From Verrucomicrobia bacterium Ga0077533 (lineage in GTDB: Bacteria; Verrucomicrobiota; Verrucomicrobiia; Opitutales; Opitutaceae), in contig LNEH01000193.1 of NCBI GenBank assembly GCA_001464505.1, positions 1-51,083 of the forward strand: a DNA stretch of 51,083 bases. Reading direction: 5' to 3'. The notes beneath the pieces are model-generated. The model saw only the letters and a program-made list of their open reading frames with translations, did no database searches and had not been told where the DNA came from. Shown in pieces: positions 5,370 to 50,877 of this stretch; the stretch's first letter is position 1, and every line of letters starts with the position of its first letter. The position numbers and the translations under genes are program-made.

Positions 5370-6493
5370 CCCGGCAGCCGCGCCTGGTATTTCCGGGCCA
5401 GCTCGAGCGCCATGTCGGCATCGCGGGCCGTCACGGTAAAGTGGCCCATTTTTCGCCCGGGGCGGGCCTCGGCCTTGCCGTAGAGGTGCAGCCGCACGTT
5501 CGGCTGCGCCAGCAGCGTGTCCCACCTGGGTTCACCGTTCGCCCACGCGTCGCCCAGGATGTTCACCATCACCACGGGCGACAGCAGCGTCACCGCGCCG
5601 AGCGGCAACCCGCAGATGGCGCGCACCTGCTGCTCGAACTGGGAAGTCATGCAGGCATCGAGCGTCCAGTGCCCGCTGTTGTGGGTGCGTGGGGCGAGCT
5701 CGTTGACCAGCACCGCGCCCGTTTTAGTGACAAAATATTCCACGCCCATCACGCCGACCAGATCGATCTTCTCCGCGATGAGCCGCGCCAGTTTTTCGGC
5801 GGCCGCCGCGACCGCCGGGGCCACCCGCGCGGGCACGATGGAGAAATCCAGAATGTGATTGGCATGAATGTTCTCCGCGACCGGAAACACCCGCACCGCC
5901 GCGTTCGGCGAGCGCGCGACGATCGCCGACACCTCGCAGGCAAAATCGATGAACTGCTCGATCACGACGGGCTGGCCGGCGAATTTCTGCGCCGCGGCCG
6001 GAATTTCCGCCTCGCTCATCACCTTGAGCTGGCCCTTGCCATCGTAGCCGAAGTCCGCCGTTTTCACCACGCAGGGCAGGCCCACCTCGCGCAGGCCGGC
6101 CGCCAGGTCGCCGCCCGCCGCCACCTCGGCAAACTTCGCCTGCGGGAATTTGTTGTCGCGCAGCCAGCGTTTTTCGCGCGCGCGGTTCTGCGTGGTCGCC
6201 AGCACGCTCCAGTGCGGCCGCAACCGTGTGATCGTCTCGATCGCCTGCAACGGCGCCGCCGGCACGTTCTCGAATTCATACGTGACGACATCGCACTCTT
6301 TCGCGAAGGCCGTCAGCGCCGCCGTGTCCTCGTAGGGGGCGTTGATCTCCTTGTGCGCCACGGCGCCGGCGGGACAATGCGCCGCCGGTTCGTAGATATG
6401 GACCCGGTAACCGAGGCGTGCCGCCGCCTGCGCGAGCATCCGTCCGAGCTGACCGCCGCCGAGCACGCCGATGGTTTTTCCCGGAAGAATCAT
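5366..6493 (-). CDS. purK: N5-carboxyaminoimidazole ribonucleotide synthase
   Basis: PurK is an ATP-grasp enzyme that carboxylates AIR to N5-CAIR with ATP and bicarbonate; PurE then isomerises the product in purine biosynthesis. The 375-residue protein has the family N-terminus GVLGGGQLGRMLAQAA, VVTYEFENVP at the end of the first domain, the ATP-grasp core (VKTADFGYDGKGQ, VIEQFIDF) and the C-terminal NELAPRTHNSGHWTLDA signature. The start chosen is the ATG at 6493, which overlaps the hicA stop as ATGA and implies translational coupling; an ATG two codons upstream (6499) is equally readable. purE lies on the same strand upstream, but a hicBA pair separates the two. The 3' end overlaps the convergent FHA gene by 4 bp. 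Confidence 0.96.
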   Translation of the reverse strand: MILPGKTIGVLGGGQLGRMLAQAAARLGYRVHIYEPAAHCPAGAVAHKEINAPYEDTAALTAFAKECDVVTYEFENVPAAPLQAIETITRLRPHWSVLATTQNRAREKRWLRDNKFPQAKFAEVAAGGDLAAGLREVGLPCVVKTADFGYDGKGQLKVMSEAEIPAAAQKFAGQPVVIEQFIDFACEVSAIVARSPNAAVRVFPVAENIHANHILDFSIVPARVAPAVAAAAEKLARLIAEKIDLVGVMGVEYFVTKTGAVLVNELAPRTHNSGHWTLDACMTSQFEQQVRAICGLPLGAVTLLSPVVMVNILGDAWANGEPRWDTLLAQPNVRLHLYGKAEARPGRKMGHFTVTARDADMALELARKYQARLPG

Positions 6494-6729
6494 GCGCATT
6501 CGTATGCCGCCAGAAAATCCTCCCGCGAGATTTGCGATTGACGCAGGATGAGGCGCAACGTGGAACCCTTGATCACGGGATGATTGGGCAAGGTCAGCGG
6601 CGTGCGGGTTCCGTCGCGATTTTGCCGCAGCATGGCAATATGCTCGCGTTCGCGCACCACCTGAAACCCCAGGCCCTTGAGCGCCCGCATAACGCGCACC
6701 CGAGGGGCATCAGCGGGAAATTTTGGCAT
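6490..6729 (-). CDS. hicA: HicA-type toxin (mRNA interferase)
   Basis: The 79-residue protein matches the HicA/YcfA fold. It has RVMRALKGLGFQVVR followed by the conserved catalytic histidine in REREHIAML, then LPNHPVIKGSTLRLILRQ near the C-terminus. HicA toxins are small double-stranded-RNA-binding-like RNases that cut mRNA when free of HicB. I placed the start at the ATG at 6729, because the upstream extension to 6765 runs back into the hicB frame and shows no family resemblance. The gene is 7 bp downstream of hicB and its stop overlaps the purK start. Antitoxin-first order is common but not universal in hic pairs. The catalytic histidine is intact, so the toxin is probably functional. Confidence 0.85.
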   Translation of the reverse strand: MPKFPADAPRVRVMRALKGLGFQVVREREHIAMLRQNRDGTRTPLTLPNHPVIKGSTLRLILRQSQISREDFLAAYECA

Positions 6730-6736
6730 GACTTGC

Positions 6737-6955
6737 TCAAACCGTCGCTTCGGCCACGAACGCATCGATCGTCGGGGTCTCGGGCGAAACCACTTCCGGG
6801 CCGAAAGTCTCGATATGGAACTTGAGCGCCGATTTCACGTCTTGCAGCGCTGCTTCGAAGGTATCGCCCTGGCCGACGACCACTCCCTCCACGCCCACCG
6901 GATAAGCCACGTAGCCATCCGCATGCTTTTCGACAATGATCTTGACGGTTTTCAT
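6737..6955 (-). CDS. hicB: HicB-type antitoxin (short form)
   Basis: This 72-residue protein has the HicB partial RNase-H-like fold. A strand region (VKIIVEKHADGYVAYPVGVEG) is followed by VVVGQGDTFEAALQDVKSALKFHIETFG, the usual HicB helix. It lacks an obvious C-terminal HTH or RHH domain, so it belongs to the short antitoxins that neutralise HicA but may need another factor to bind DNA. It lies 43 bp downstream of purE and 7 bp upstream of hicA on the same strand, and so sits inside the purine gene pair. Expression could come from a local promoter in the 43-bp gap or by read-through from purE; I could not identify a convincing promoter. Confidence 0.8.
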   Translation of the reverse strand: MKTVKIIVEKHADGYVAYPVGVEGVVVGQGDTFEAALQDVKSALKFHIETFGPEVVSPETPTIDAFVAEATV

Positions 6956-21140: not shown

Positions 21141-22664
21141 TCAATGTGGGTAAAATAGCGGAGCTCCGGGACCGACCGGCCAGCCGAGGAGCAACCACCC
21201 AACCAACATCGCGGTCCAGCCTACCAGGTTGACCGCGGAATACGGCAGCATCGCGGCGATGATGGTGCCGATGCCGGCTTTCGGCAGGTAGCGCTGCACA
21301 AACATCAGCACGAGCGGAAAGTTTGAGGAGAGCGGCGTGACGATGTTCGTGATGCTGTCACCCACGCGGTAGGTGGCCTGCGTCAGCTCGGGCGAATAAC
21401 CAAGCAACATGAACATCGGCACGAAAACGGGCGCAAGGATGGCCCACTTTGCCGCCGCCGAACCGAGGAAGAGGTCCACGGTCGCGGTGAGCAGGATGAG
21501 CCCGACCAGCAGCGGCACCGGACCGAGCGAGAGCGTCTTGAGCACGGCCGCACCCTCGATCGCAAACAACACACCCAGGTTGGACCAGTTGAAGAGGTTC
21601 ACGAACTGCGCGATGAAGAACACCATCACCAGGTAGCCGGCGACGAGTTCCATGTTCTTCTGCATGCCGCGGTAGACCTCCGCATCGGAACGGATCGACC
21701 CCGCCGCGAAGCCGTAGGCGAGCCCGGGCGCGAGTCCGAAGAGAAAGATGAAAAAGGTCAGACCGCGCACAAAATACGATCCGATGAACCCTGGCTTCGC
21801 CGGGTCCTGCAGAAAGCCGCCCGCCGGCAGCAAACCGGCCAGCACGACCGCCGCCATCAACAGGACCGCCGTGCCCGCCCAGACCAGGCCCCGGCGCTCG
21901 GCGCTCGTGAGCGGCGCCAGCTGCTCGGCCGGCACGTCGCCGCGATACGCGCCCAGCCGCGGCTCGACCACCCGGTCGGTAAGAAAGGTGCCCACGGCCG
22001 TGATGAGGATCACCGAGGCGGCCAGAAAAAAATAATTGGCCATGGGTGACACCGCGTAAGCCGGGGCCAGCGCTCGTGCCGCCTCCTGCGTGAGCCCGGC
22101 GAGCACGACATCGGTCGGCGACAGCAGCAGGTTGGCGGCGAACCCGCCCGACACGCCGGCGAACGCCGCGGCGATGCCCGCCAGCGGGTGCCGCCCCACC
22201 GCATGAAACAGCGTGGCGCTCAGCGGGATCAACAGCACGTAGCCCACATCGCCCGCCGAGTGCGACATCGCGCCGCAAAACACCACCATGAAGGTCAGCA
22301 GCCGGCGCGGGGTCAAACCGACCACCAGCCGCACGCAGGCCCCCAGCAGGCCACTGTGCTCCGCGACCGAAAGCCCGAGCAGGCAGACCAGCACCGGGCC
22401 GAGCGGGGCGAAATTCATGAAGTTCGGCACGATGCCGAGGACCAGACGCCGCAGGCCGTCGGCCGAGACAAGGTTCAGCGCCCGCACCGGTTCGCCGCTG
22501 ACCGGGTTCACCGCGTGCAGCTGACAGACATCCGCCAACCAAGACAGGCCCACGACCCCCGCGCTGAGCAGCAGGAACAGCGTGGCCGGATGTGGCAGCG
22601 CGTTGCCGACACGCTCGATCCAGTCGAGGGCGCGTTGGAAGGTCGTGCCGGACGCGGACTTCAT
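21141..22664 (-). CDS. abgT: AbgT-family p-aminobenzoyl-glutamate-type transporter
   Basis: This 507-residue membrane protein belongs to the AbgT family, in which E. coli AbgT imports p-aminobenzoyl-glutamate and others export sulfonamides. Family features are the N-terminal WIERVGNALPHPATLFLLLS, MNFAPLGPVLVCLLGLSVAE, CGAMSHSAGDVGYVLLIPLS, SGGFAANLLLSPTDVVLAG and the second pseudo-repeat VTPLSSNFPLVLMFVQRYLP. The ATG at 22664 overlaps the stop of the amidohydrolase gene as ATGA, which decides the start. It is the last gene of a four-gene operon with a capA-like gene, a TonB receptor and an N-formylglutamate-amidohydrolase-family gene, suggesting import of an acyl- or aryl-glutamate. Direction and exact substrate are inference. 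Confidence 0.9.
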   Translation of the reverse strand: MKSASGTTFQRALDWIERVGNALPHPATLFLLLSAGVVGLSWLADVCQLHAVNPVSGEPVRALNLVSADGLRRLVLGIVPNFMNFAPLGPVLVCLLGLSVAEHSGLLGACVRLVVGLTPRRLLTFMVVFCGAMSHSAGDVGYVLLIPLSATLFHAVGRHPLAGIAAAFAGVSGGFAANLLLSPTDVVLAGLTQEAARALAPAYAVSPMANYFFLAASVILITAVGTFLTDRVVEPRLGAYRGDVPAEQLAPLTSAERRGLVWAGTAVLLMAAVVLAGLLPAGGFLQDPAKPGFIGSYFVRGLTFFIFLFGLAPGLAYGFAAGSIRSDAEVYRGMQKNMELVAGYLVMVFFIAQFVNLFNWSNLGVLFAIEGAAVLKTLSLGPVPLLVGLILLTATVDLFLGSAAAKWAILAPVFVPMFMLLGYSPELTQATYRVGDSITNIVTPLSSNFPLVLMFVQRYLPKAGIGTIIAAMLPYSAVNLVGWTAMLVGWLLLGWPVGPGAPLFYPH

Positions 22665-23536
22665 GTCACGACCCTGTGGGCCGTCCGCTCCCGCGCCAAT
22701 TCGCAAACAGCCCGGGCAAAACTTTCGAGGTGTCCGCGCATTTCGGCAAAACGGGGGCCGCGCTCGCAGGCGGCTTCGTCGAGATACAAGGCGCGATTGA
22801 TCTCGATCTGGATGCTGTGGCGGGAGGCCGCCGGGTCGCCGTGGGTCACCACCAGATCTCCGCCCCGGTAGGGCTCATTGATCTTTACGCTGAAACCGCA
22901 GCCGGCAAACCAGTCGGCCGTCCAACGGGTAAAGTCGGGATGGGCCGTGCGTCCGTTCCGATCGCTCACCACGATGTCGGGCCGGGGCGCGCCGTCATCC
23001 ACGTTCATGCCGTTGCCGCGCGACTTCATCGAGTGGCAGTTGATGTGCCAGACGGCGCCGTGGGCGGCGTGAAGCGCGTCGAGCCGGCTCTTGAGGGCGA
23101 CGCGGTAAGGGTGGTAGCAGGTCGCGAGGCGATGCTGGACCTCGGCCACGGAGAGAGGCCGGTCATACATCGGCACGCCCGGTAGCGCCAGGTGCCGGAT
23201 GAGCCCCATGCCCCGCCGGCTGTAATCGGTGGGGGCCAGGCGCCCGGGCCACGGAGCAGCGAGCAGCGCGGGGTCGAGATCGTCCGCCGCGCGGTTGGCA
23301 TCGATGTAGGCCCGCGGGAAACAGGCGGCCAGGAGCGTGGCGCCGTGTGAAGGCGCGCCGGCCCAAAGTTCGTCGACGTAGGCGTCCCACGTGGTGAGGA
23401 TGGCCGCGCGCGGGGCGGCAGGCCGGAAGTCGGGCGGCCACTCCATGCCGCTGTGCGGCGAATCAAAGATCACCGGCAGGGACTGACCAGGGCCGGGAAT
23501 CCGGATGGTCAGCGGTGACGGGGAAGTGGTGGACAT
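22661..23536 (-). CDS. N-formylglutamate amidohydrolase family enzyme
   Basis: The 291-residue cytoplasmic protein belongs to the N-formylglutamate deformylase (HutG-type) family, zinc-dependent amidohydrolases releasing glutamate from acyl-glutamates. Motifs include VIFDSPHSGMEWPPDF with the metal histidine, YIDANRAADDLDP, HINCHSMKSRGNG, PDIVVSDRNG and QIEINRALYLDE. All look intact. The start is the ATG at 23536; the longer frame to 23680 would overlap the end of the TonB receptor gene and is low-complexity. No other hut genes are nearby, so a role in histidine breakdown is unlikely. Its overlap with abgT and its place after a TonB receptor suggest cleavage of an imported acyl-glutamate or glutamyl conjugate. 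The family also has distant fold relatives among phage poly-gamma-glutamate hydrolases. Confidence 0.85.
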   Translation of the reverse strand: MSTTSPSPLTIRIPGPGQSLPVIFDSPHSGMEWPPDFRPAAPRAAILTTWDAYVDELWAGAPSHGATLLAACFPRAYIDANRAADDLDPALLAAPWPGRLAPTDYSRRGMGLIRHLALPGVPMYDRPLSVAEVQHRLATCYHPYRVALKSRLDALHAAHGAVWHINCHSMKSRGNGMNVDDGAPRPDIVVSDRNGRTAHPDFTRWTADWFAGCGFSVKINEPYRGGDLVVTHGDPAASRHSIQIEINRALYLDEAACERGPRFAEMRGHLESFARAVCELARERTAHRVVT

Positions 23537-23597: not shown

Positions 23598-26500
23598 TCA
23601 GAGACGCTTGGAGAACTCGACGTAGAAACTCCGGCCGCGCGGATCGCCGATGCCGCGGAAGAAACCGTCGGTTTCGCCACTCAGGGCGAAAGGCGGCTCG
23701 GCATCGAAGAGGTTGTTCACGCCGAGGCGGATCGCGGCACCCTTGAGCCAGCCGTCGTCAAACTTCCGGCCGAGGCTGATCCGGGACAACCAGCTTTCCT
23801 CGACGATGTAGAAGCCCTCGCTGGAGATGTGGGCCCCGGTGGCGGTGGTGCGCAGGGATGGATCCTTGGTGCGTCCCGTGTATTCGGTGACCCAGCCCGC
23901 CTGCCAGGGGCCGCGGCTCCATTGCAGGGTGAACGAACCCTTCCATCGGGTGTTGCCGTCGGTCCAGCTCAGATCGCTGGCCGGGCCGCCGGCCACGAGC
24001 GTCTCGTCGAATTTCCGCAGGTGCGAAGCCTCGAGCGTGCCGCGAAAAACACCCCAGGCGGTTTTCGGACTGCGGTAGGAAGCGAGGAAATCGAGGCCGG
24101 AGAGCTTGCGCCCGGCGGCGTTGAGGTAGGACTCGCCGACGAAGCGGAGGGTGCCGACGGCGGCGCGCTGCTGGTCGCGGGGGCGGGAGGCGTTGTAGGC
24201 GGCGAAGGTGGCGAGGTCGGCCGCGGTCACGGCGTTGCGGATGATGTTCGCGCTGCCTGCGGCGCTGAGATCCACCTGGTCGACCGGGCGGGCAATGGCC
24301 GCCGTGTTGGCGGCGAGGAGCAGGGCCGTGTCCTCGGCGATGATGTTGCCCGCATCCAGGCGGGTGATGGCGTCGGTCTGCTCCATTTGCCACCAATCGA
24401 TCCCGAAGGCGAAGCCCTTGAGCGCGGGCGGCTCGAAAACCACCCCAAAGGTGAGGGTGTCGGACTCCTCCGGCCGGAGGGCGCGGTTGCCGGTGCGCAG
24501 GGAGACGCGCCGGGCGGTGGTGCCGTCGTCGGACGAGCCGGTGACCGTGGCGCGGTAGGCGTCGTTTACGCCGGTAATGCTGCGCTGGACGGCGCCGGAG
24601 AAGAGCGAGGCGAGATTGGGCGCGCGAAAGGCCTGGTTGTAGGAGCCGCGGACCATGACCCAATCGAAGAGACGGGCGGAGAGACCGAGTTTCGGCTTGG
24701 TGGTGTCGCCGAAATCCGAGTATTTCTCGAAACGGACGGCGCCCGACAGTTCGACCGATTGCAAACCCGCGCCCTCGCGCCGGCCGACCAGCGGCACGGC
24801 CACCTCGGCAAAGGCGGCGGTGACGTTGCGGGAGGAGTCCGTGTTGTCAGAGGGACTGACCTGGATGTAGTTGTTGTCGCCGATAAGCCGGCTCTGCAGG
24901 CCGAGGGCGGCGACGTCGGCAGCACTGAGCCGGCCAGACTCGGCGTCGCGGAAATCGATGTAGGTTTCGCGCCGGTATTCGCCGCCGGCCGCCATGGAAA
25001 GGGGCCCGGCGGGCATCTCCCAGAGCGGGCCGTTGACGCGAAAATCCCAACTGGCGAGGGAGGTCTCGCCGCGGCGGTAGAAGGTGCCGCGCAACGGCGC
25101 AATGACGGACTCGGGGTTCACGAACGGCGTGCCGCTCGCCACCAGTGCTCCGCTGACGACGGAGAAGGTCGTCATGAACGGGTTCAGGGCGGCGCTGGTG
25201 GTGCGCTCGGCGGCGGCGCGGAGCTGGCTTTCCTTGATGGCGTTGGACTCGAGGTCGACGGTCTGCGCGCGGGAATAAAGCGCGGCGGTTTCCCAATTCC
25301 ATTTTTCGAGGGCGACGCCGCGCAGGCCGGCCACGGCGCGCCAGGTTTCGGAGCGCACGTCGATGAGCCGCGGACCGAACTCGGGCAGGGTGACACGGGT
25401 GAGCACCACCGTCGAAGGCGTGCCGGTGAGCCGAGGCGTGCCGTCAGCATTGGGCGCACCGGCAGAGTCGTAGAAACGCGAGCCGAAGGGGTTGAAGGGG
25501 TTGTCCGCGGAGACGAAGATGTTGTTGTCGGCCGTGGAATCGACGCGCGAGGGTTCGCGTTCGTTGTGCGAATCCGAGCGGTAGAGGTTGAGATCGGAGA
25601 AAAAGGTCAGATTGGGGGAGAACCGGTGGTCGAGGGAGGCGTAGAGGTTGTGCCGGCGGGTCTCGGGAACAAGAAACCGGAAGGCGTTCACGTTCATGTA
25701 ATAGTCGCCGACCGGCGAGCCCACGGCCCGGTTTGGCTCCGTCGCCTGAAGCACACGGGTGCTGGCGCCGGGAGCCGAAGGCACGAAGTAGAAAGTGCCG
25801 TTGGTGGCCAACTGGGCGGAGGTGACGCCCGCCGGACGGGATCCGGTGACCGTGTTGTTGGCGTTGACGGTGCCACGCTGGAATCGGCCGAAGAAACCGC
25901 GATCGGAGCGCACATCGGCGGAGTTGTCGGCCGTCGAGCCGTCCCAGGGCGCCGGGGCGCGCAGGCGAAGGTCGGCATTGCGGGAGAAGTCGCGGTCGGC
26001 GTTGCGGATCTCCTCGCGATTGAGGAAATCGTAATTGAAGACGAGGCTGGTGCGGTTGTCGTTGAAGCGGAGTCCGCCGGAGAGGGTCGCCCGCCACTCG
26101 GTGCCGCCGCCATGCTCGGTGGTGGCGTAGCGCGTCGAAAGTTCAAAGCCGTCGTAACCGCGGTGCAGGATGGTGTTGATCACCCCGGCGGTTGCGTCCG
26201 TGCCGTAGATGGCGGAGGCGCCGTCGCGCAGCACTTCGATGCGGGCGATGGCGGCGGCGGGCAGGACGTTGATGTTGGTCGCCATGCTGGGCACGCCGAT
26301 GTTGCCCTCGGGCATGGAAATGGGATGGGGTGCCAGACGGCGGCCGTTGAGGAGGACCAGCGTGTTGCCGGATCCCAACCCGCGGAGGCTGACGGTGGCG
26401 ATATCGCCGCGGGCATCGGCGCCGGAAGCCTGGCTTTCGGTGATGGGCACCCGGCCGGCCTGCGGCAGGCTGGCAAACAGCTCCGCCGGGGTCGCGACGC

Positions 26501-26699
26501 CGCGGGCACGCAGATCCTCGTCGAGGATCACGGTGACCGGCAGGGCCTTCTCCTGATCGAGCCGCTTCAGGTAGGTGCCCGTGACAGTGAAAGCTTCGAG
26601 TTGCAAGGTCTCGGGCGCCTTGGGCGCGGTCTGGGCGGGGAGCAAAGCGGCGGCGGACAGCAAGGCCGCGGCAGCGGACAGTCGTGGGTGGTTTTTCAT
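23598..26699 (-). CDS. TonB-dependent outer membrane receptor (first)
   Basis: The 1033-residue protein has a signal peptide (MKNHPRLSAAAALLSAAALL), an N-terminal TonB-box-like segment (LEAFTVTGTY), a plug domain and a C-terminal beta-barrel. Plug motifs are ITESQASGADARGDIATVSL, LVLLNGRRLAPHP and IEVLRDGASAIYGTDATAGV. Barrel motifs include VRGSYNQAFRAPNLASLFSG and LRPEESDTLTFGVVFEPP, and the protein ends in a C-terminal aromatic-containing strand (FYVEFSKRL). It lacks an STN secretin-like signalling domain, so it is a transducing-free importer. Its ATG overlaps the capA-like stop as ATGA. It should import a large or scarce nutrient across the outer membrane with energy from TonB-ExbBD encoded elsewhere. 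A paralogue lies at 33494-36694. Confidence 0.93.
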   Translation of the reverse strand: MKNHPRLSAAAALLSAAALLPAQTAPKAPETLQLEAFTVTGTYLKRLDQEKALPVTVILDEDLRARGVATPAELFASLPQAGRVPITESQASGADARGDIATVSLRGLGSGNTLVLLNGRRLAPHPISMPEGNIGVPSMATNINVLPAAAIARIEVLRDGASAIYGTDATAGVINTILHRGYDGFELSTRYATTEHGGGTEWRATLSGGLRFNDNRTSLVFNYDFLNREEIRNADRDFSRNADLRLRAPAPWDGSTADNSADVRSDRGFFGRFQRGTVNANNTVTGSRPAGVTSAQLATNGTFYFVPSAPGASTRVLQATEPNRAVGSPVGDYYMNVNAFRFLVPETRRHNLYASLDHRFSPNLTFFSDLNLYRSDSHNEREPSRVDSTADNNIFVSADNPFNPFGSRFYDSAGAPNADGTPRLTGTPSTVVLTRVTLPEFGPRLIDVRSETWRAVAGLRGVALEKWNWETAALYSRAQTVDLESNAIKESQLRAAAERTTSAALNPFMTTFSVVSGALVASGTPFVNPESVIAPLRGTFYRRGETSLASWDFRVNGPLWEMPAGPLSMAAGGEYRRETYIDFRDAESGRLSAADVAALGLQSRLIGDNNYIQVSPSDNTDSSRNVTAAFAEVAVPLVGRREGAGLQSVELSGAVRFEKYSDFGDTTKPKLGLSARLFDWVMVRGSYNQAFRAPNLASLFSGAVQRSITGVNDAYRATVTGSSDDGTTARRVSLRTGNRALRPEESDTLTFGVVFEPPALKGFAFGIDWWQMEQTDAITRLDAGNIIAEDTALLLAANTAAIARPVDQVDLSAAGSANIIRNAVTAADLATFAAYNASRPRDQQRAAVGTLRFVGESYLNAAGRKLSGLDFLASYRSPKTAWGVFRGTLEASHLRKFDETLVAGGPASDLSWTDGNTRWKGSFTLQWSRGPWQAGWVTEYTGRTKDPSLRTTATGAHISSEGFYIVEESWLSRISLGRKFDDGWLKGAAIRLGVNNLFDAEPPFALSGETDGFFRGIGDPRGRSFYVEFSKRL

Positions 26700-27886
26700 C
26701 GGGGTTGGTTGGTGGAAAGAGTGGCCGGCGGCAGCGCGACCCGGGCCGCATCGCCGTCGTAGAGGAGAACCGTGCCGAACTCGGCGGATTGCGCCGCGAA
26801 ATGCTCGAGCACGCGCCGAGCGTCGGCGCCGCGGGCCGGACGCGGAGCGCCGCGCGTCTCGTTGAAACGCGCCGGGTCAGCGCCATGCTCGTTCAGCAAC
26901 ACGGGGCGCAGGCGGATTTCCGCGACCCGGCCGTCCCGCAGCTCAAGATCCGCCACCACCGATTGCCACACCTCGGGCGCGTAATGCCCGGGCTTGGTGA
27001 TGGTGTGGAAGATCAGGCTGCCCAATCCGTAGAAGATCGGCCGGTTGCGGTAGATCTCAAGGCCGTGCAATTGCGGCACGCCGTGGGACACGAAGACAGC
27101 GGCCCCGGCGTCGATGCAGGCCCGGGCAAAATTCTTCTTCCAATCCGGCGTGAGCAGCCGGTTCTCCTCCCAGTAGTGGTCGTGCTGGTAGACAATCACC
27201 GTCCGGGCCTGGGTGGCGGCGAATCGGATGGCGGCGAAGACCCGCTCGGCATCCTCGACGATCAGGCGGCGCTCGGCGTCGAGCCGCACTTCGTTGACCC
27301 CCGGCCGTTCCGCGGTGGCCGCGGCCCCGGGGCGGAGGCGGCCCGAGGCCAGGGCCACCAGCGCCACGCGGCCCGCGGGGGTCTCCAGGAATGCGGGTGC
27401 GGACGCCTCGCCCAGATTTCGCCCGGTGCCGGCACGGATGAAACCGCGCCGGTCCACTTCGAGCAGGGTGGAGAGAATGCCGGGCGTGCCGAGGTCCCAC
27501 GAGTGGTTGTTGCCCGTGGAGAGAAGATTGAATCCGAGCTCCTTCAAGCAATCGAGCACCACGGGGTCGGCCGCGTGCTGGTATTCGTTCTGCCGCGTGG
27601 GCGTGCCGCCGAACGGTCCCTCGATGGCCGTCTCCAGATTAGTGAAACTCACGTGCGGAGCGCCGGCGCGGAGGAAGCCGGTGAGCGCCGGAAACTCCCC
27701 GGCGTGGACCGCACGCAGGTCATGCTTGATCAGGGACTGGCCGGTCAGTTGCACCCGCAAGGGGGTAGCGTCGGCGTGCATCGGCCCGGCCAGCCAAGAC
27801 AGCATCGGAGCCAGCGCGGTGCGCAGACACCCGCGAGACAGGGCGCGCGGCAACCAGGCGACTAATCGGACGGGAAATCGGGGCAT
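26696..27886 (-). CDS. CapA/PgsA-like poly-gamma-glutamate-type metallophosphatase-fold protein
   Basis: This 396-residue protein has an N-terminal export-type segment and a CapA-family domain (calcineurin-like fold). Motifs are HVSFTNLETAIEGPFGGT, LLSTGNNHSWDLGTPGI, TVIVYQHDHYWEENRLL and DAGAAVFVSHGVPQLHGLEI followed by FYGLGSLIF. CapA/PgsA participates in poly-gamma-glutamate capsule synthesis in Bacillus, but many CapA-like proteins exist without capsule genes and have unknown roles. No capB or capC homologue is present here. I prefer the ATG at 27886 over a GTG at 27901. It is the first gene of the TonB receptor / amidohydrolase / abgT operon and is divergent from the CARF-like regulator. 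A hydrolase acting on a glutamyl polymer or conjugate in the periplasm is the natural inference. Confidence 0.85.
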   Translation of the reverse strand: MPRFPVRLVAWLPRALSRGCLRTALAPMLSWLAGPMHADATPLRVQLTGQSLIKHDLRAVHAGEFPALTGFLRAGAPHVSFTNLETAIEGPFGGTPTRQNEYQHAADPVVLDCLKELGFNLLSTGNNHSWDLGTPGILSTLLEVDRRGFIRAGTGRNLGEASAPAFLETPAGRVALVALASGRLRPGAAATAERPGVNEVRLDAERRLIVEDAERVFAAIRFAATQARTVIVYQHDHYWEENRLLTPDWKKNFARACIDAGAAVFVSHGVPQLHGLEIYRNRPIFYGLGSLIFHTITKPGHYAPEVWQSVVADLELRDGRVAEIRLRPVLLNEHGADPARFNETRGAPRPARGADARRVLEHFAAQSAEFGTVLLYDGDAARVALPPATLSTNQPR

Positions 27887-27956
27887 TGGGGTGAACCGCA
27901 CAAGAGCAGATCCGGCCCAAGCGGCAAAAAGAATGATTTCAATGCCCGTTTAAGTC

Positions 27957-27972
27957 TGCAACATGCGTTGCA
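27957..27972. promoter_or_regulatory. Candidate operator palindrome between capA-like operon and CARF-like regulator
   Basis: TGCAACATGCGTTGCA has 6-bp inverted arms (TGCAAC/GTTGCA) around a 4-bp centre. It sits in the short divergent gap between the capA-like start (27886 or 27901) and the regulator start (27986), 13 bp before the latter. Its position suits a site where the regulator controls both itself and the operon. No sigma-54 -24/-12 element (TGGC-N8-TGC) is visible in the gap, which agrees with the regulator's loss of the sigma-54 contact loop. Confidence 0.45.
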
Positions 27973-27985
27973 AAGCCATCGCCCC

Positions 27986-29476
27986 ATGTCCCGCCCCATC
28001 CTCGTCACTTTTGTCGGCTCCAACGACCCGTATTACACCGAGGGACACGAGGATGGACGGCTCAAGGGACCCGTGCTCTCCGTCCTCGACGCGCGCGTTT
28101 TCGCCCGGGTGGTCCTGCTCAGCCGGTCGCACCGCCACGAAGAGGCCGAGCGCACCCGGTCGGCCATCGCCCGCCTGCATCCCAAGTTGCCGGTCGCGGC
28201 GCGGGCGATCGAACTGGCCGACAGCACGCAGCACGCCGAAATCCTCGGCCAGTTGCGCCCGCTGTTCTCGGACTTGGTGCGAGAGGCGGACGGCCAGACC
28301 CTGCACATATCGCTGCTTTCCTGTCCGCCCGAAGTGCATGCGTGCCTCGTGCTGATCGTCACCGCCGGCGAGGTGCCGGCGCGCCTGCTCAATTTCCGGC
28401 GCACCGTGCATGACGGCCTCGCCGGGGCCCGCCAGCTGCGCGAACTCGACTGGAGCAAACCTCTCGCGCGCCTGACCCCCGAAACCCTCGCCCTGCTCGG
28501 CACCAAACGCGACCGTTGGGACGACGCCGAATTGCAGGCCCCGGACCACGCCGCGCCCCGCCATTATTTCACGCCCCGCACGATGGAGCAGGCCGTTCAT
28601 CTCAGCCGACACGGCGCCCCGCTGCTCGTGCAAGGGGAGCCGGGCACGCAAAAGCAGATCTTCGCCGCCCTCCTGCACCAGTTGGGGCCGCGGCACGACC
28701 GCCCGCTCATCATCTTCAACTGCGCGGCCGTCGCGGGCGCCATCTTCGAGGCCGTGCTCTTCGGCGAAGAATCCCGCGAAGCCGAGGGCAAACTGCGGCA
28801 GGCGGACGGCGGCACCCTCGTGCTCATCAAGTGCCAGCACCTGCCCGCCGAGGTCATGCTCGCCCTGTTGAAAGCGGCGGATGCCGGACATTACTACGTC
28901 GGACGCAGCCGCTCACCCGTGCGGATGAGTTGCCGCCTGATCTTCACGTCCGACCGCGACCTGGAGGCCGAGGTCCGCCTCGCCCGCTTCCCCGCCGAGG
29001 CCTGGGAGCGGCTCAAGCTCAATGCCGTCACCCTGCCGCCCCTGCGGGAACATGCCGCCGACATCGCCCTGCTAGCTCACGACGAACTGGATCGCCTCAA
29101 CCGCACCCTCCCGCGCCCCCGTCGCTTCTCCTCCGGCGCCCTGGCCAAGCTCGAAAGCCATTCCTGGCCGAGCAACATCAGCGAGCTTCGCCGCGTCGTC
29201 GAACACGCCGTCGTTCAGGCCGAGGGGAGCACCATCCAGGAGACTGACATCGCCCTCGATCTCGGTCTCAACATGGCCAACGTCATCACGGTCTCCCCGC
29301 CACGGATCCGCCAGGGGTTCTCGCTCGAGGATTATCTCCGGGCAGTCAAATTCGATCTCGTCCGCGCCGTGTTGCGAAAAACCGGCGGCAACCAGAGCGA
29401 GGCCGCCCGCCTGCTCGGGGTCACACCCCAAGCCGTGAGCAAATACGTGACATCTCTCTCGACTCGTCGGCCTTGA
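27986..29476 (+). CDS. CARF-like sensor / degenerate AAA+ (sigma-54 activator-like) / Fis HTH regulator
   Basis: This 496-residue regulator resembles RtcR-type proteins. Residues 1-145 look like a CARF Rossmann fold: ILVTFVGSNDPYYTEG at the start and SLLSCPPEVHACLVLIVTAG then EVPARLLNFR near the end, the same order as in RtcR. An AAA+ module follows (about 190-410) but is degenerate. Walker A is GEPGTQKQ (217-224) instead of GESGTGKE. The GAFTGA sigma-54 loop is absent between LFGEESREAEG and ADGGT. Walker B is GGTLVLIKC (275-283), without the Asp-Glu pair. The C-terminal HTH (GGNQSEAARLLGVTPQAVSK, 468-487) is intact. It should therefore bind DNA and a nucleotide-type ligand but not remodel sigma-54 polymerase by ATP hydrolysis. 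The ATG at 27986 was preferred to a TTG at 27968. It is divergent from the capA-like operon; no CRISPR or rtc genes are near. Confidence 0.8.
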   Translation: MSRPILVTFVGSNDPYYTEGHEDGRLKGPVLSVLDARVFARVVLLSRSHRHEEAERTRSAIARLHPKLPVAARAIELADSTQHAEILGQLRPLFSDLVREADGQTLHISLLSCPPEVHACLVLIVTAGEVPARLLNFRRTVHDGLAGARQLRELDWSKPLARLTPETLALLGTKRDRWDDAELQAPDHAAPRHYFTPRTMEQAVHLSRHGAPLLVQGEPGTQKQIFAALLHQLGPRHDRPLIIFNCAAVAGAIFEAVLFGEESREAEGKLRQADGGTLVLIKCQHLPAEVMLALLKAADAGHYYVGRSRSPVRMSCRLIFTSDRDLEAEVRLARFPAEAWERLKLNAVTLPPLREHAADIALLAHDELDRLNRTLPRPRRFSSGALAKLESHSWPSNISELRRVVEHAVVQAEGSTIQETDIALDLGLNMANVITVSPPRIRQGFSLEDYLRAVKFDLVRAVLRKTGGNQSEAARLLGVTPQAVSKYVTSLSTRRP

Positions 29477-31246: not shown

Positions 31247-32947
31247 TCAATACCCGACGGCCGCGTTGGTGCGGCGGGGATCAGCATAACCGGTGTAGCC
31301 GCCCCCGGGCACCAATTCGATGGCGTTGATGCCGCCAAAATTCCGCCCGGTGCCGGCAGCCTCGACCAATTCCACTTTCCAACCGAGCTGGCGCAAGGCC
31401 TCAGCGTCGGTAGCCGGCAACGAACTTTCCGCCTCGAAGGTTTCCTCGTTGTCCTTCCTCCAATTGCGGTCGAAATGCACGCGCGTGTCGCCGATGGCCT
31501 CGGCGAGCGGCCGGCCGAGGGCCAGGCGATCGAGCAGCGCCTGCAGCAGCGCGGTCGGGATCCTCGACGCCCCGGGGATGCCGATGGCCAGGACCGGTTT
31601 GCCGCCGCGGAAGACCAGCGTCGGGGCAATGGTGCTGCGCGACCGCTTGCCCGATGCCACATAGTTGATGCTGACGGGATCGCTGAACGCAAAATTGCTC
31701 ATCGAGTCGTTGAGCACGACGCCGGTGCCGGGAGGCACGACACCCGCACCGAAATGAAGGCTTAGGGATTGCGTGGCGCAGACGATGTTGCCCGCCGCAT
31801 CCGCGACGACGAAATGCGTTGTGGCGGCCATCGCGCTGGCGGAAAAGCCGCTGTCATCCCATCCCGCCACCTTGAGGCCGGGTTCGGCCGGTGCGCGGAT
31901 TTTCGCCCGGATGGCCTGAATGGAGTCGGGGGCAACGAGTTTCTCGAAGTTGAACCACGCCTCGGGCGCATCCCCGATGCTGCGCTGCACCAGCGGCTGC
32001 ACCTCGCGCCAAGCGCGGCCGATCTGGTCGAGGTTGGCCGCGGACCGGAGCGGACCGCCGGCGAACGACTCATCCTCCAGCACCTTCATGATGGCGAGGA
32101 AGAGCGGCGCGCCGTTGGTCGGCGGCGGGCCCGCCAGCAGGCGATATCCGCGAAAATCGATGCCGATGGGCTCGACAAAACGCGCTTCGTAGCTGGCAAG
32201 ATCAGCGAGCGTCAGCGCTCCCCCGCCCTTTTGCGCCGCCGCCACGATCGCCTCGGCCACCGGACCGCGATAGAAACCGTCGCGCCCGTGCTGCGCGATC
32301 AGCCCGAGGGTGTGCGCGAGATCCGCGTTGGCCAGGTGCGAGCCGACGGCGGGCAACTGCCCGTCCGGCAGGTAAAGCCGGGCGATCTCGGTGTCGCCGC
32401 GCCGGAGTTTCTTTTCCTGGTCGGCGAAAAACTCGCGGGTCTTCGGCAAAATCTCAAAGCCCTCGCGGGCCAGGTTGATCGCCGGCGCAACAGCGTCGGC
32501 CCATTTCAGCCGGCCCCATTTCTGATGCGCCGCCCACAGGCCCGCCGCCAGTCCCGGCACGCAGACCGAGCCATAGCCATAACTGCGATCCTCTTCCGGT
32601 CGCTTCAGGTAGGCCGCCACATCGAGCGAGCCGGCCGCATCCATCGCGTCCACGGCGTAGGTCTTCCCCGTGGCCGCCTCGTAATGGAGGAGCATGAGCT
32701 TGCCGCCGAGCCCGGAGCCGTAGGGCTCCGCCACGCCGAGCGCGAGCGAGACGGCGACGGCGGCATCGATGGCGTTGCCCCCGGCTTGAAGCGTCTCCAG
32801 CCCGGCCTGCGCCGCCTGCGGATGACCGGCCACCACCATCCCGCGCGCGCCGAAGACCGGCTCGACCCGCACCGGCAGCGCGGCGGCGGCCGTCAGCCAG
32901 AGAACGGCGGACAGCAGACCGAGGGCCATGTGACGCGGAACTGCCAT
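31247..32947 (-). CDS. ggt: Gamma-glutamyltransferase
   Basis: GGT is a periplasmic N-terminal nucleophile hydrolase that removes gamma-glutamyl groups from glutathione, poly-gamma-glutamate or other conjugates. The 566-residue precursor has a signal peptide and the large-subunit motifs VVAGHPQAAQAGLETLQAGG, GNAIDAAVAVSLALGVAEPY and GSGLGGKLMLLHY. The autocleavage site is visible as MAATTHFVVADAAGN (catalytic Thr before HFVV). It also has LNDSMSNFAF and GKRSRSTIAPTLVFRGGKP with the glutamate-binding residues. All look intact, so it should mature and be active. A truncated dicarboxylate/glutamate symporter remnant lies just upstream. With the capA-like/abgT operon 4 kb away, a joint role in using gamma-glutamyl compounds is plausible. 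Confidence 0.93.
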   Translation of the reverse strand: MAVPRHMALGLLSAVLWLTAAAALPVRVEPVFGARGMVVAGHPQAAQAGLETLQAGGNAIDAAVAVSLALGVAEPYGSGLGGKLMLLHYEAATGKTYAVDAMDAAGSLDVAAYLKRPEEDRSYGYGSVCVPGLAAGLWAAHQKWGRLKWADAVAPAINLAREGFEILPKTREFFADQEKKLRRGDTEIARLYLPDGQLPAVGSHLANADLAHTLGLIAQHGRDGFYRGPVAEAIVAAAQKGGGALTLADLASYEARFVEPIGIDFRGYRLLAGPPPTNGAPLFLAIMKVLEDESFAGGPLRSAANLDQIGRAWREVQPLVQRSIGDAPEAWFNFEKLVAPDSIQAIRAKIRAPAEPGLKVAGWDDSGFSASAMAATTHFVVADAAGNIVCATQSLSLHFGAGVVPPGTGVVLNDSMSNFAFSDPVSINYVASGKRSRSTIAPTLVFRGGKPVLAIGIPGASRIPTALLQALLDRLALGRPLAEAIGDTRVHFDRNWRKDNEETFEAESSLPATDAEALRQLGWKVELVEAAGTGRNFGGINAIELVPGGGYTGYADPRRTNAAVGY

Positions 32948-32956
32948 CCCAGGGAA

Positions 32957-33229
32957 TCAGCTCCGCAGGCCTTTCTGCGCCCCGGGCGTCGTGACGATTT
33001 CAAAGCAGACGAGCGCCTTCACCCCCACCCGGCCGGCCCTCTTCATGTCCCCCAGGCCCGCGATCCCCGCCACCACGGTGGTGAAGCTGATCGGCGCGAT
33101 CAGCATCTTGATGAAGCCGTCCCCCAGCGGCTTGAGCGGCACGGCCCAGTCCGGCGCCATGACACCCAGCAGCACGCCCAGCGCGATGGCCGCGAGCACC
33201 TGGACATGGAGGGAGCGGAGATATTCCAT
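32957..33229 (-). pseudogene. Truncated dicarboxylate/amino acid:cation symporter (DctA/GltP type)
   Basis: Only the N-terminal 80 or so residues of a DAACS-family carrier remain: [40 protein letters not shown] and [20 protein letters not shown], reaching [10 protein letters not shown]. After that the frame gives about ten unrelated residues (PGAQKGLRS) and stops. Full-length proteins run about 410-450 residues with eight membrane helices and two re-entrant loops, so this fragment cannot transport. The break falls 10 bp before the gamma-glutamyltransferase start, as if that gene or a deletion replaced the rest. I find no continuation in other frames. Confidence 0.85.
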
Positions 33230-50278: not shown

Positions 50279-50590
50279 ATGGAGTTCATTGAAACCTCCG
50301 TGTTCAGCAAAAGCGCGCACGGCCTGCTGGAGGAAGACGATCTGACCGATCTCCAGTCGGTGCTTATGCTCCGGCCCGAAGCGGGGACGATCATCCCCGG
50401 CCCTGCCGGCTGCCGCAAACTGCGCTGGGCCCTGCCCGGTCGCGGCAAGAGCGGTGGCGCACGTGTCATCTACTACTGGCTGCGCTCCGACCACCAGATT
50501 TACCTTCTTCTGGCCTACGCCAAAAACCGCCAGGAGAATCTCACCCCGGAACAGGCGCGCCTCCTGCGCCACATCGTCGAAGACCTATGA
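50279..50590 (+). CDS. RelE/HigB-type toxin
   Basis: The 103-residue protein has the RelE/ParE superfamily pattern. It starts MEFIETSVFSKSAHGLLEED, with the middle motif IPGPAGCRKLRWALPGRGKS and then GGARVIYYWLRSDHQIYLLL and AYAKNRQENLTPEQARLL. The K-R..GRGKSGGARV..Y core is typical of HigB-type ribosome-dependent mRNA interferases. The gene precedes its antitoxin, the order usual for higBA, and overlaps it by ATGA at 50587-50590. It lies directly after the hppA terminator. The pair is bounded on the right by a second copy of the hppA 3' end, suggesting that it arrived with an insertion at hppA. Confidence 0.9.
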   Translation: MEFIETSVFSKSAHGLLEEDDLTDLQSVLMLRPEAGTIIPGPAGCRKLRWALPGRGKSGGARVIYYWLRSDHQIYLLLAYAKNRQENLTPEQARLLRHIVEDL

Positions 50591-50877
50591 AAGCCGAAAA
50601 CTTCACCCTCCTCCTCCAAAGCGCCGCCGAGATGCGCGCCATCCGCCGCGGCGGGCGCAAGCCGGCCCGCGTCCGGCGGGTCACAGCCGAATCCGCGCAG
50701 GTCGTGCGCATGCGCCTCGGGCTCAGCCAGCCGATGTTCGCCGATCTGCTGGGCATCAGCGTGGCCACGCTGCGCAACTGGGAACAAGGCCGCCGTCAGC
50801 CCACGGGGGCCGCCGAAATCCTGCTCCGCATTGCCGCCAAGCATCCCACCATCGTCCAGGACGCCGTCTCCGCCTGA
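50587..50877 (+). CDS. HigA/NadS-like HTH antitoxin
   Basis: The 96-residue protein has an N-terminal helical stretch (FTLLLQSAAEMRAIRRGGRK) and a C-terminal XRE-type HTH (VRMRLGLSQPMFADLLGISV, ATLRNWEQGRRQPTGAAEIL). It is the antitoxin and autorepressor partner of the upstream RelE/HigB-type toxin. The genes overlap by ATGA. The arrangement and the pattern RRVTAESAQVVRMRLGLSQP resemble proteins annotated as NadS family. After its stop, within about 10 bp, begins DNA homologous to the hppA 3' end. Confidence 0.9.
   Translation: MKAENFTLLLQSAAEMRAIRRGGRKPARVRRVTAESAQVVRMRLGLSQPMFADLLGISVATLRNWEQGRRQPTGAAEILLRIAAKHPTIVQDAVSA

Follow-up and report, generated by a model that had tools for sequence, protein, structure and literature searches.

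The window, by which we mean the whole 51,083-nt stretch of the Opitutaceae genome Ga0077533 (Verrucomicrobiota) that was analysed, carries a gene for a putative transcription regulator (P0001), a divergent run of genes with uptake and hydrolase annotations, and a conserved tandem dyad between them. The features are the following:

21141–22664, minus strand: AbgT-family transporter (PF03806, 607 bits)
22661–23536, minus strand: N-formylglutamate amidohydrolase-like protein, FGase (PF05013, 226 bits)
23598–26699, minus strand: TonB-dependent receptor, 1033 aa (PF00593, PF07715)
26696–27781, minus strand: PGA_cap (CapA-like) protein, divergent to the regulator (PF09587, 150 bits; start uncertain, could be 27901)
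27925–27970, no strand assigned: 46-bp conserved block, a CAAA-N3-AAT extension plus the putative operator (column conservation)
27940–27970, no strand assigned: putative tandem dyad operator, CAAT-GCCC-GTTT-N7-CAAC-ATGC-GTTG (14/16 to consensus)
27986–29476, plus strand: CARF/pseudo-AAA+/Fis-HTH regulator P0001, 496 aa (Pfam and PADLOC profile matches)
27986–28468, plus strand: CARF sensor domain, residues 1–161 (AlphaFold model, PDB matches)
28571–29275, plus strand: AAA+ domain of the sigma-54-activator type, residues ~196–430, its catalytic and sigma-54-contacting elements dead (motif losses)
29318–29449, plus strand: Fis-type helix-turn-helix region, residues ~445–488 (HTH_8 at 456–483)
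31247–32947, minus strand: gamma-glutamyltranspeptidase, a possible further member of the gene group (PF01019, 392 bits); it adjoins the regulator in locus L046 too

Beside the gamma-glutamyltranspeptidase gene lies a truncated sodium:dicarboxylate symporter (32957–33229, 90 aa, profile positions 1–79 of 387), and two pairs of small ORFs at 6490–6955 and 50279–50877 resemble, by eye, toxin–antitoxin modules (HicA/HicB-like and RelE/HigA-like).

The regulator is accompanied by a conserved set of nutrient-uptake genes

The original prediction placed the regulator beside nutrient-uptake genes. Pfam matches bear this out, and the neighbourhood is conserved across the clade of closest homologues described below. 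A divergent PGA_cap and/or TonB receptor gene was found at all ten clade loci, and the FGase-like gene comes next at 8/8 loci with contigs long enough. AbgT is present in seven of those eight, the remaining one (L042) having a YfcC-like transporter in its place; L042, L044 and L046 also contain an M20 amidohydrolase gene. The FGase of the window scored 82.9 against the HutG equivalog model, far under its cut-off of 278.75, and the AbgT protein scored 542 and 428 against the two NCBIfam AbgT models (cut-offs 754 and 864, respectively). Since both proteins miss the NCBIfam cut-offs that name a substrate, the substrate is one that we infer: judging from the gene content, the operon probably serves to import glutamyl compounds of the N-acyl, gamma or poly type and to cleave them.

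An AbgT protein at least 67% identical to that of the window occurs in 17 of 252 genomes, among them eight of the ten that carry the regulator. The nine others have this AbgT without the regulator (two of them, at L100 and L101, with TonB receptors alongside), hence the regulator is not obligatory for the operon. At L100 (2482–16010) genes for gamma-glutamyltranspeptidase, a TonB receptor, PGA_cap, a second TonB receptor, M20, FGase and AbgT form a one-way, operon-like run with neither regulator nor tandem dyad.

The AAA+ domain has lost its motor in a whole clade

P0001 matches the Pfam families Sigma54_activat (81.6 bits), AAA_lid_14 (54.2 bits), HTH_8 (30.5 bits) and, barely above the cut-off of 23.1, RtcR (23.9 bits). 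The full-length PADLOC profile RtcR_PspF2 (PDLC01995) covers residues 5–491 of 496 (E 6.9e-66); the intact relatives P0002 and P0004 match it at E 2e-124 and 3.3e-124. A structure search recovered an AAA+ fold of the sigma-54-activator type in the middle part of the protein. The Fis-type HTH, expected to be in good order, proved to be so by its HTH_8 score and its sequence (NQSEAARLLGVTPQAVSK), and 24 of the 44 columns of this region are invariant across the ten clade members.

The ORF translation agrees with the reading of the Walker A motif as GEPGTQKQ, and the motif is indeed altered, with the correction that its lysine (K223) is retained and the glycine preceding it has become Q222. The other two losses that had been proposed hold as well: the Walker B motif (LVLIKC) lacks Asp-Glu, and GAFTGA is missing, the alignment showing a seven-residue gap at its position. 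Two further losses were absent from the earlier description, namely that of the sensor-II arginine (WPGNxREL changed to WPSNxSEL, S399) and that of the first arginine of FREDLxxR, an arginine finger, which is replaced by P336. The sensor-II arginine and the FREDLxxR arginine fingers are functional residues of sigma-54 enhancer-binding proteins.

Carriers of the regulator at 59% identity or more number 10 among 252 genomes of the family (its own included), distributed over four genera; the nine homologues (59–69% identity to P0001) come from three other Opitutaceae genera. An eleventh match in these genomes (G245, 32% identity) is an intact relative. A search of 20 further genomes from the same genus gave no full-length match. 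Two matches at E ≤ 1e-130, both within the same family, were found among 372 genomes drawn from the order, a draw that bounds the spread only roughly because it held few known carriers. A wider contig scan returned nine loci, all from Opitutaceae or Opitutia, which are known clade members and no additional ones, and none of 68 candidate stretches from viral contigs was a relative.

All ten clade members share the losses: Walker A reads GEPGTQK identically, GAFTGA is deleted with the seven-residue gap, the Walker B acids are replaced by IK or LK (LIK or LLK), the sensor-II position is serine, and the first arginine of FREDLxxR is gone, the second being retained in nine. They were set beside 13 intact relatives, a set (4 + 9) chosen from the matches listed by near-full-length coverage and not by motifs; partial matches such as G534 and G478 were left out. 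L053 (G082), at first a candidate, proved to be an ordinary activator of the receiver type and entered neither the tree nor the counts. The first four of these relatives are 29–32% identical to P0001. All 13 have GxxGxGK, the Walker B DE, the sensor-II arginine and the first FREDLxxR arginine; exact GAFTGA is found in 11, and L104 (GSFTGA) and L108 (DAFTGA) were counted as intact despite their variants. Neither GAFTGA nor the Walker B acids occur in any of the nine close homologues, and only distant relatives retain both. In a tree built after removal of the columns for Walker A, L1 and Walker B (its midpoint root being a drawing aid only), the ten clade members lie on one side of a branch with support 100/100 and length 1.08. 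For the two closest pairs, whole-protein dN/dS came to 0.10 and 0.08; three more distant pairs gave 0.14–0.24, and no single domain exceeded 0.36 (0.36 for the CARF domain of window/L040, 0.35 for the linker of L045/L047).

The N-terminal domain has a CARF fold with new basic residues

CARF domains are known as nucleotide sensors, at work in RNA repair and in defence against phages. Because AAA+ matches filled the fold search with the full-length protein, the N-terminus was folded separately: residues 1–161 were modelled by AlphaFold from the ten clade sequences (pLDDT 79, pTM 0.77). The best PDB match of the model was VC1899 (Z 14.9, rmsd 2.8, 131 aligned residues), followed by Cami1, Csm6, Cad1 and Can2, with Csa3 lower down. 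The best 50 PDB entries in VIA-align (Z 11.1–14.9) belong to CARF or CARF ring-nuclease proteins, an identity that we presume for some of them, and so do the Foldseek matches with E ≤ 0.001 (22/22). Moreover, Pfam RtcR is detected at E ≤ 0.01 throughout the clade (10/10), and the intact relative P0002 passes the Csm6-CARF cut-off. Profile (RtcR) and structure prediction both fall inside CARF, as had been predicted, and the model thereby confirms the CARF fold of the P0001 N-terminus.

The motif after strand 4 is SGTP in most intact relatives and SCPP in P0001 and its nearest relative, L040; the remaining clade members have SGTP or AGTP (six) and SGPP or SGPA (two). Within the CARF domain, 17 columns are invariant in the clade with a residue found in at most one of the 13 intact rows, and eight of these are basic: K27, R47, H49, R50, H83, R139, H142 and R149, with the caveats that the H49 column is arginine in three intact rows and that R149 lies in a stretch absent from the intact rows. 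No basic residue of this domain is invariant among the five nearest intact rows. In the secondary structure predicted by the model, the eight residues fall at strand ends, in first helix turns or in the last hairpin, a topology that would set them about the ligand-binding edge of the fold. Their conservation suggests an anionic ligand. For RtcR, it was reported that the CARF domain is inhibitory and that oligoadenylates are not its signal (PMC9650030). A tentative proposal, to which we give less than even odds, is that the CARF sensor was rebuilt for a nutrient, the eight basic residues at the pocket edge suiting a polycarboxylate (for instance a product of gamma-glutamyl compounds or of poly-gamma-glutamate), while the motor died and the ancestral enhancer site was retained and moved beside the gene's own start, which would leave a classical one-component regulator.

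A tandem dyad precedes the regulator gene at all clade loci

A palindrome (TGCAACATGCGTTGCA) noted earlier at 27957–27972 is indeed present and turned out to be the second half of a conserved double dyad. The consensus, CAAC-N4-GTTG-N7-CAAC-N4-GTTG, stands just upstream of the regulator start with the same geometry at 10/10 clade loci and scores 12–16 of 16 fixed bases, on a pattern read by eye from the same ten loci that it is scored on. The ten-locus result was equalled by 1 of 5000 shuffles, and the score of the window locus was reached by none of 500. In ten-column windows, the 46-bp block holds 1.06–1.36 bits per column inside and 0.18–0.53 outside. Ten control loci that contain AbgT and lack a regulator gene (nine in the regulator-less genomes, and L102 on a different contig of G280) reached only 10–12 of 16. 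The dyad ends 14–33 bp before the regulator start codon at all ten loci, and the regulator start lies 158–323 bp from the divergent start codon by gene call at nine loci, L040 being left out as its gene call is unsure.

In its own genome (assembly 82.75% complete), the tandem dyad of the window is the only site with at most two mismatches. Nine clade genomes hold 15 such sites versus 8 for the reversed pattern; since the excess of seven corresponds to the regulator-adjacent sites, the others are at chance level. G280 has one site elsewhere (one mismatch) that is closer to the consensus than the one at its regulator, and no site in G261/G262 comes within two mismatches.

Among the intact relatives, L105 matches the tandem pattern exactly (16/16) at the 3′ terminus of the regulator gene, and in its sister L104 a pair of perfect dyads, spaced 20 bp apart, follows closely 3′ of the gene; in the remaining 11, the best tandem dyad scores no more than 12 of 16. 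A scan of 387 genomes of the phylum gave a single exact match to the pattern (at L105) and likewise a single one to the reversed control, hence it is the place of the L105 dyad and not its number that counts. Its presence at L104 and L105 indicates that the dyad is probably older than the loss of the motor; less probably, it arose twice.

A 12/13 sigma-54 promoter lies ~100 bp beyond the dyads of L104, and the sigma-54-like site of L105 is weak (10/13; 35 of 200 shuffles equal it). When 400 bp on each side of the gene were scanned, sites of at least 12/13 were found at 0/10 dead and 6/13 intact loci (Fisher p 0.019), and at the threshold of 11/13 the counts were 1/10 (the window) and 7/13, which is not significant (p 0.074). 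The lone upstream site of the window scores 11/13, and 13 of 200 shuffles are as good.

At L104 (8491–9497) the dyads and the 12/13 site stand ahead of two genes, the first for a KTSC-domain protein and the next for a single-strand-binding protein; at L105 (6017–6989, reverse strand) the exact tandem dyad and the 10/13 site accompany two ORFs that by eye are alike to those of L104. Intact CARF-sigma-54 activators are found immediately 5′ of cas10 at L111 (6872–11213; III-B-like) and L103 (7001–9730; III-A-like, cut off by the end of the contig stretch). In both, a sigma-54-like promoter (12/13 and 11/13, respectively) intervenes between activator and cas10, and it is possible that these type III CRISPR loci are under sigma-54 control by a CARF sensor. 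At L050 (9998–16774), L108 (1267–7872) and L052 (308–7428), the intact relatives are followed by type I restriction-modification genes, and in L050 the stretch that separates the regulator from the restriction subunit contains a 12/13 sigma-54 promoter.

Discussion

Taken as a whole, our results support the original prediction of a DNA-binding regulator that works without sigma-54 remodelling and that may be controlled by a ligand. We consider it most likely, with a probability of roughly 0.62, that P0001 is a sigma-54-independent CARF regulator that represses both its own gene and the divergent glutamyl-compound operon until released by its ligand. Its ancestor, a sigma-54 activator of the RtcR_PspF2 (CARF-AAA-HTH) kind, whose members often neighbour phage-defence genes, would have given up ATP hydrolysis and sigma-54 contact, the AAA+ fold possibly being retained as a scaffold for oligomerisation and signal transmission. 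Between the divergent start codons, the Fis-type HTH would bind both CAAC-N4-GTTG dyads (spacing 19 bp) and thereby repress, at ordinary sigma-70 promoters, both the regulator gene and the operon for the TonB receptor, the N-formylglutamate amidohydrolase, AbgT, and PGA_cap or the M20 amidohydrolase. The rebuilt CARF pocket may then bind an anionic ligand, for which a glutamyl compound or one of its breakdown products is the most likely candidate, and DNA binding would change as a result. Since the promoter scan found no sigma-70 promoter pattern in the intergenic region of the window, the use of sigma-70 is argued here by exclusion.

We favour a repressor because the dyad ends so close to the regulator's own start codon, a position that suits autorepression. 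The main rival is a sigma-70 activator of the kind of VpsR or the Rhodobacter capsulatus NtrC, which would recruit the housekeeping polymerase at the dyad when ligand is present. Enhancer-binding proteins that lack GAFTGA are reported to act at sigma-70 promoters, some of them without ATP hydrolysis (PMC10274813), and the distance between the divergent start codons leaves room for an upstream activator site; however, the dyad of all ten loci sits 14–33 bp from the start codon of the regulator itself, and we regard activation as less likely than repression. An ATP-dependent form of it is unlikely, since R. capsulatus NtrC requires ATP binding (PMC10274813) and both the P-loop glycine and the Walker B acids are gone here.

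Sigma-54 could also be reached indirectly, were P0001 a non-catalytic subunit or a dominant-negative partner in rings with an intact enhancer-binding protein. The same genome has four other matches of the sigma-54-activator type, and the AAA+ fold has been retained under purifying selection. Yet no sigma-54-like site of at least 12/13 lies within 400 bp of the gene at any of the ten loci, and no intact CARF-AAA-HTH partner was found in the genome (82.75% complete), as the four other matches cover only residues from ~198 on; we hold such mixed rings to be highly improbable. The remaining explanation, that P0001 is a decaying gene with motifs eroded by chance, could appeal to the patchy distribution in the family (10/252) and to the lack of a full-length match in 20 genomes of the same genus. 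Against it speak the identical altered Walker A in 10/10 members, dN/dS well below 1, the strongly conserved HTH, and the conservation of tandem dyad and neighbouring genes. Given that 9/9 homologues share the losses under purifying selection, we reject decay as scarcely credible and return to the ligand-released repressor.

CARF-AAA-HTH regulators have been known near restriction systems since 2014 (Makarova et al., PMC4012209) and near CoCoNuTs since 2024 (PMC11090510). P0001 shares the domain order of RtcR_PspF2--CARF_AAA_HTH (PDLC01995) over its whole length, and a similar tandem dyad stands beside two intact relatives; it differs in lacking the Walker B acids, the P-loop glycine, the sensor-II arginine, the first arginine finger and GAFTGA, in having no sigma-54-like site of at least 12/13 nearby, and in adjoining nutrient genes instead of restriction-modification or CRISPR genes. 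RtcR of the rtcBA operon likewise combines CARF, an NtrC-type AAA+ domain and a Fis HTH, and it drives a sigma-54 promoter (PMC9650030). Unlike RtcR, P0001 scores 153.6 bits on NCBIfam NF038308, for which the cut-off is 650, and neither rtcA nor rtcB is found among its scanned neighbour genes. The absence of the loop-1 GAFTGA contact with sigma-54 is shared with VpsR and the NtrC proteins of R. capsulatus and Caulobacter, and promoters other than those of sigma-54 are to be expected. Those three proteins have a response-regulator-like N-terminus, and Caulobacter NtrC needed its Walker A and B residues (PMC10274813). In P0001, unlike in these proteins, the sensor is a CARF domain and most of the nucleotide-handling residues are gone. 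Finally, like Csa3 and other CARF-HTH factors, P0001 couples CARF to putative DNA binding without an active ATPase. Csa3 has a winged HTH straight after its CARF domain and belongs to CRISPR loci, while P0001 has an AAA+ scaffold and a Fis HTH and lies outside defence. The portions of the literature covered by our search contain no CARF regulator with a dead ATPase, with an earlier mention in the 2020 CARF classification being possible. Hence, what we describe is a variant, new in combining a CARF sensor, a dead AAA+ domain and a nutrient operon, as CARF-AAA-HTH regulators and GAFTGA-less activators are already known.

The clade offers a traceable case of a sigma-54 activator that lost its ATP motor and its sigma-54 contact, apparently in both protein and promoter; a like double dyad can still be made out at every dead locus found and at two intact ones. 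It would also be a case in which a CARF sensor has left defence and RNA repair for the probable control of nutrients. With few candidate ligands and a defined 31-bp site, the question of which ligand a non-CRISPR CARF domain senses becomes testable in these bacteria.
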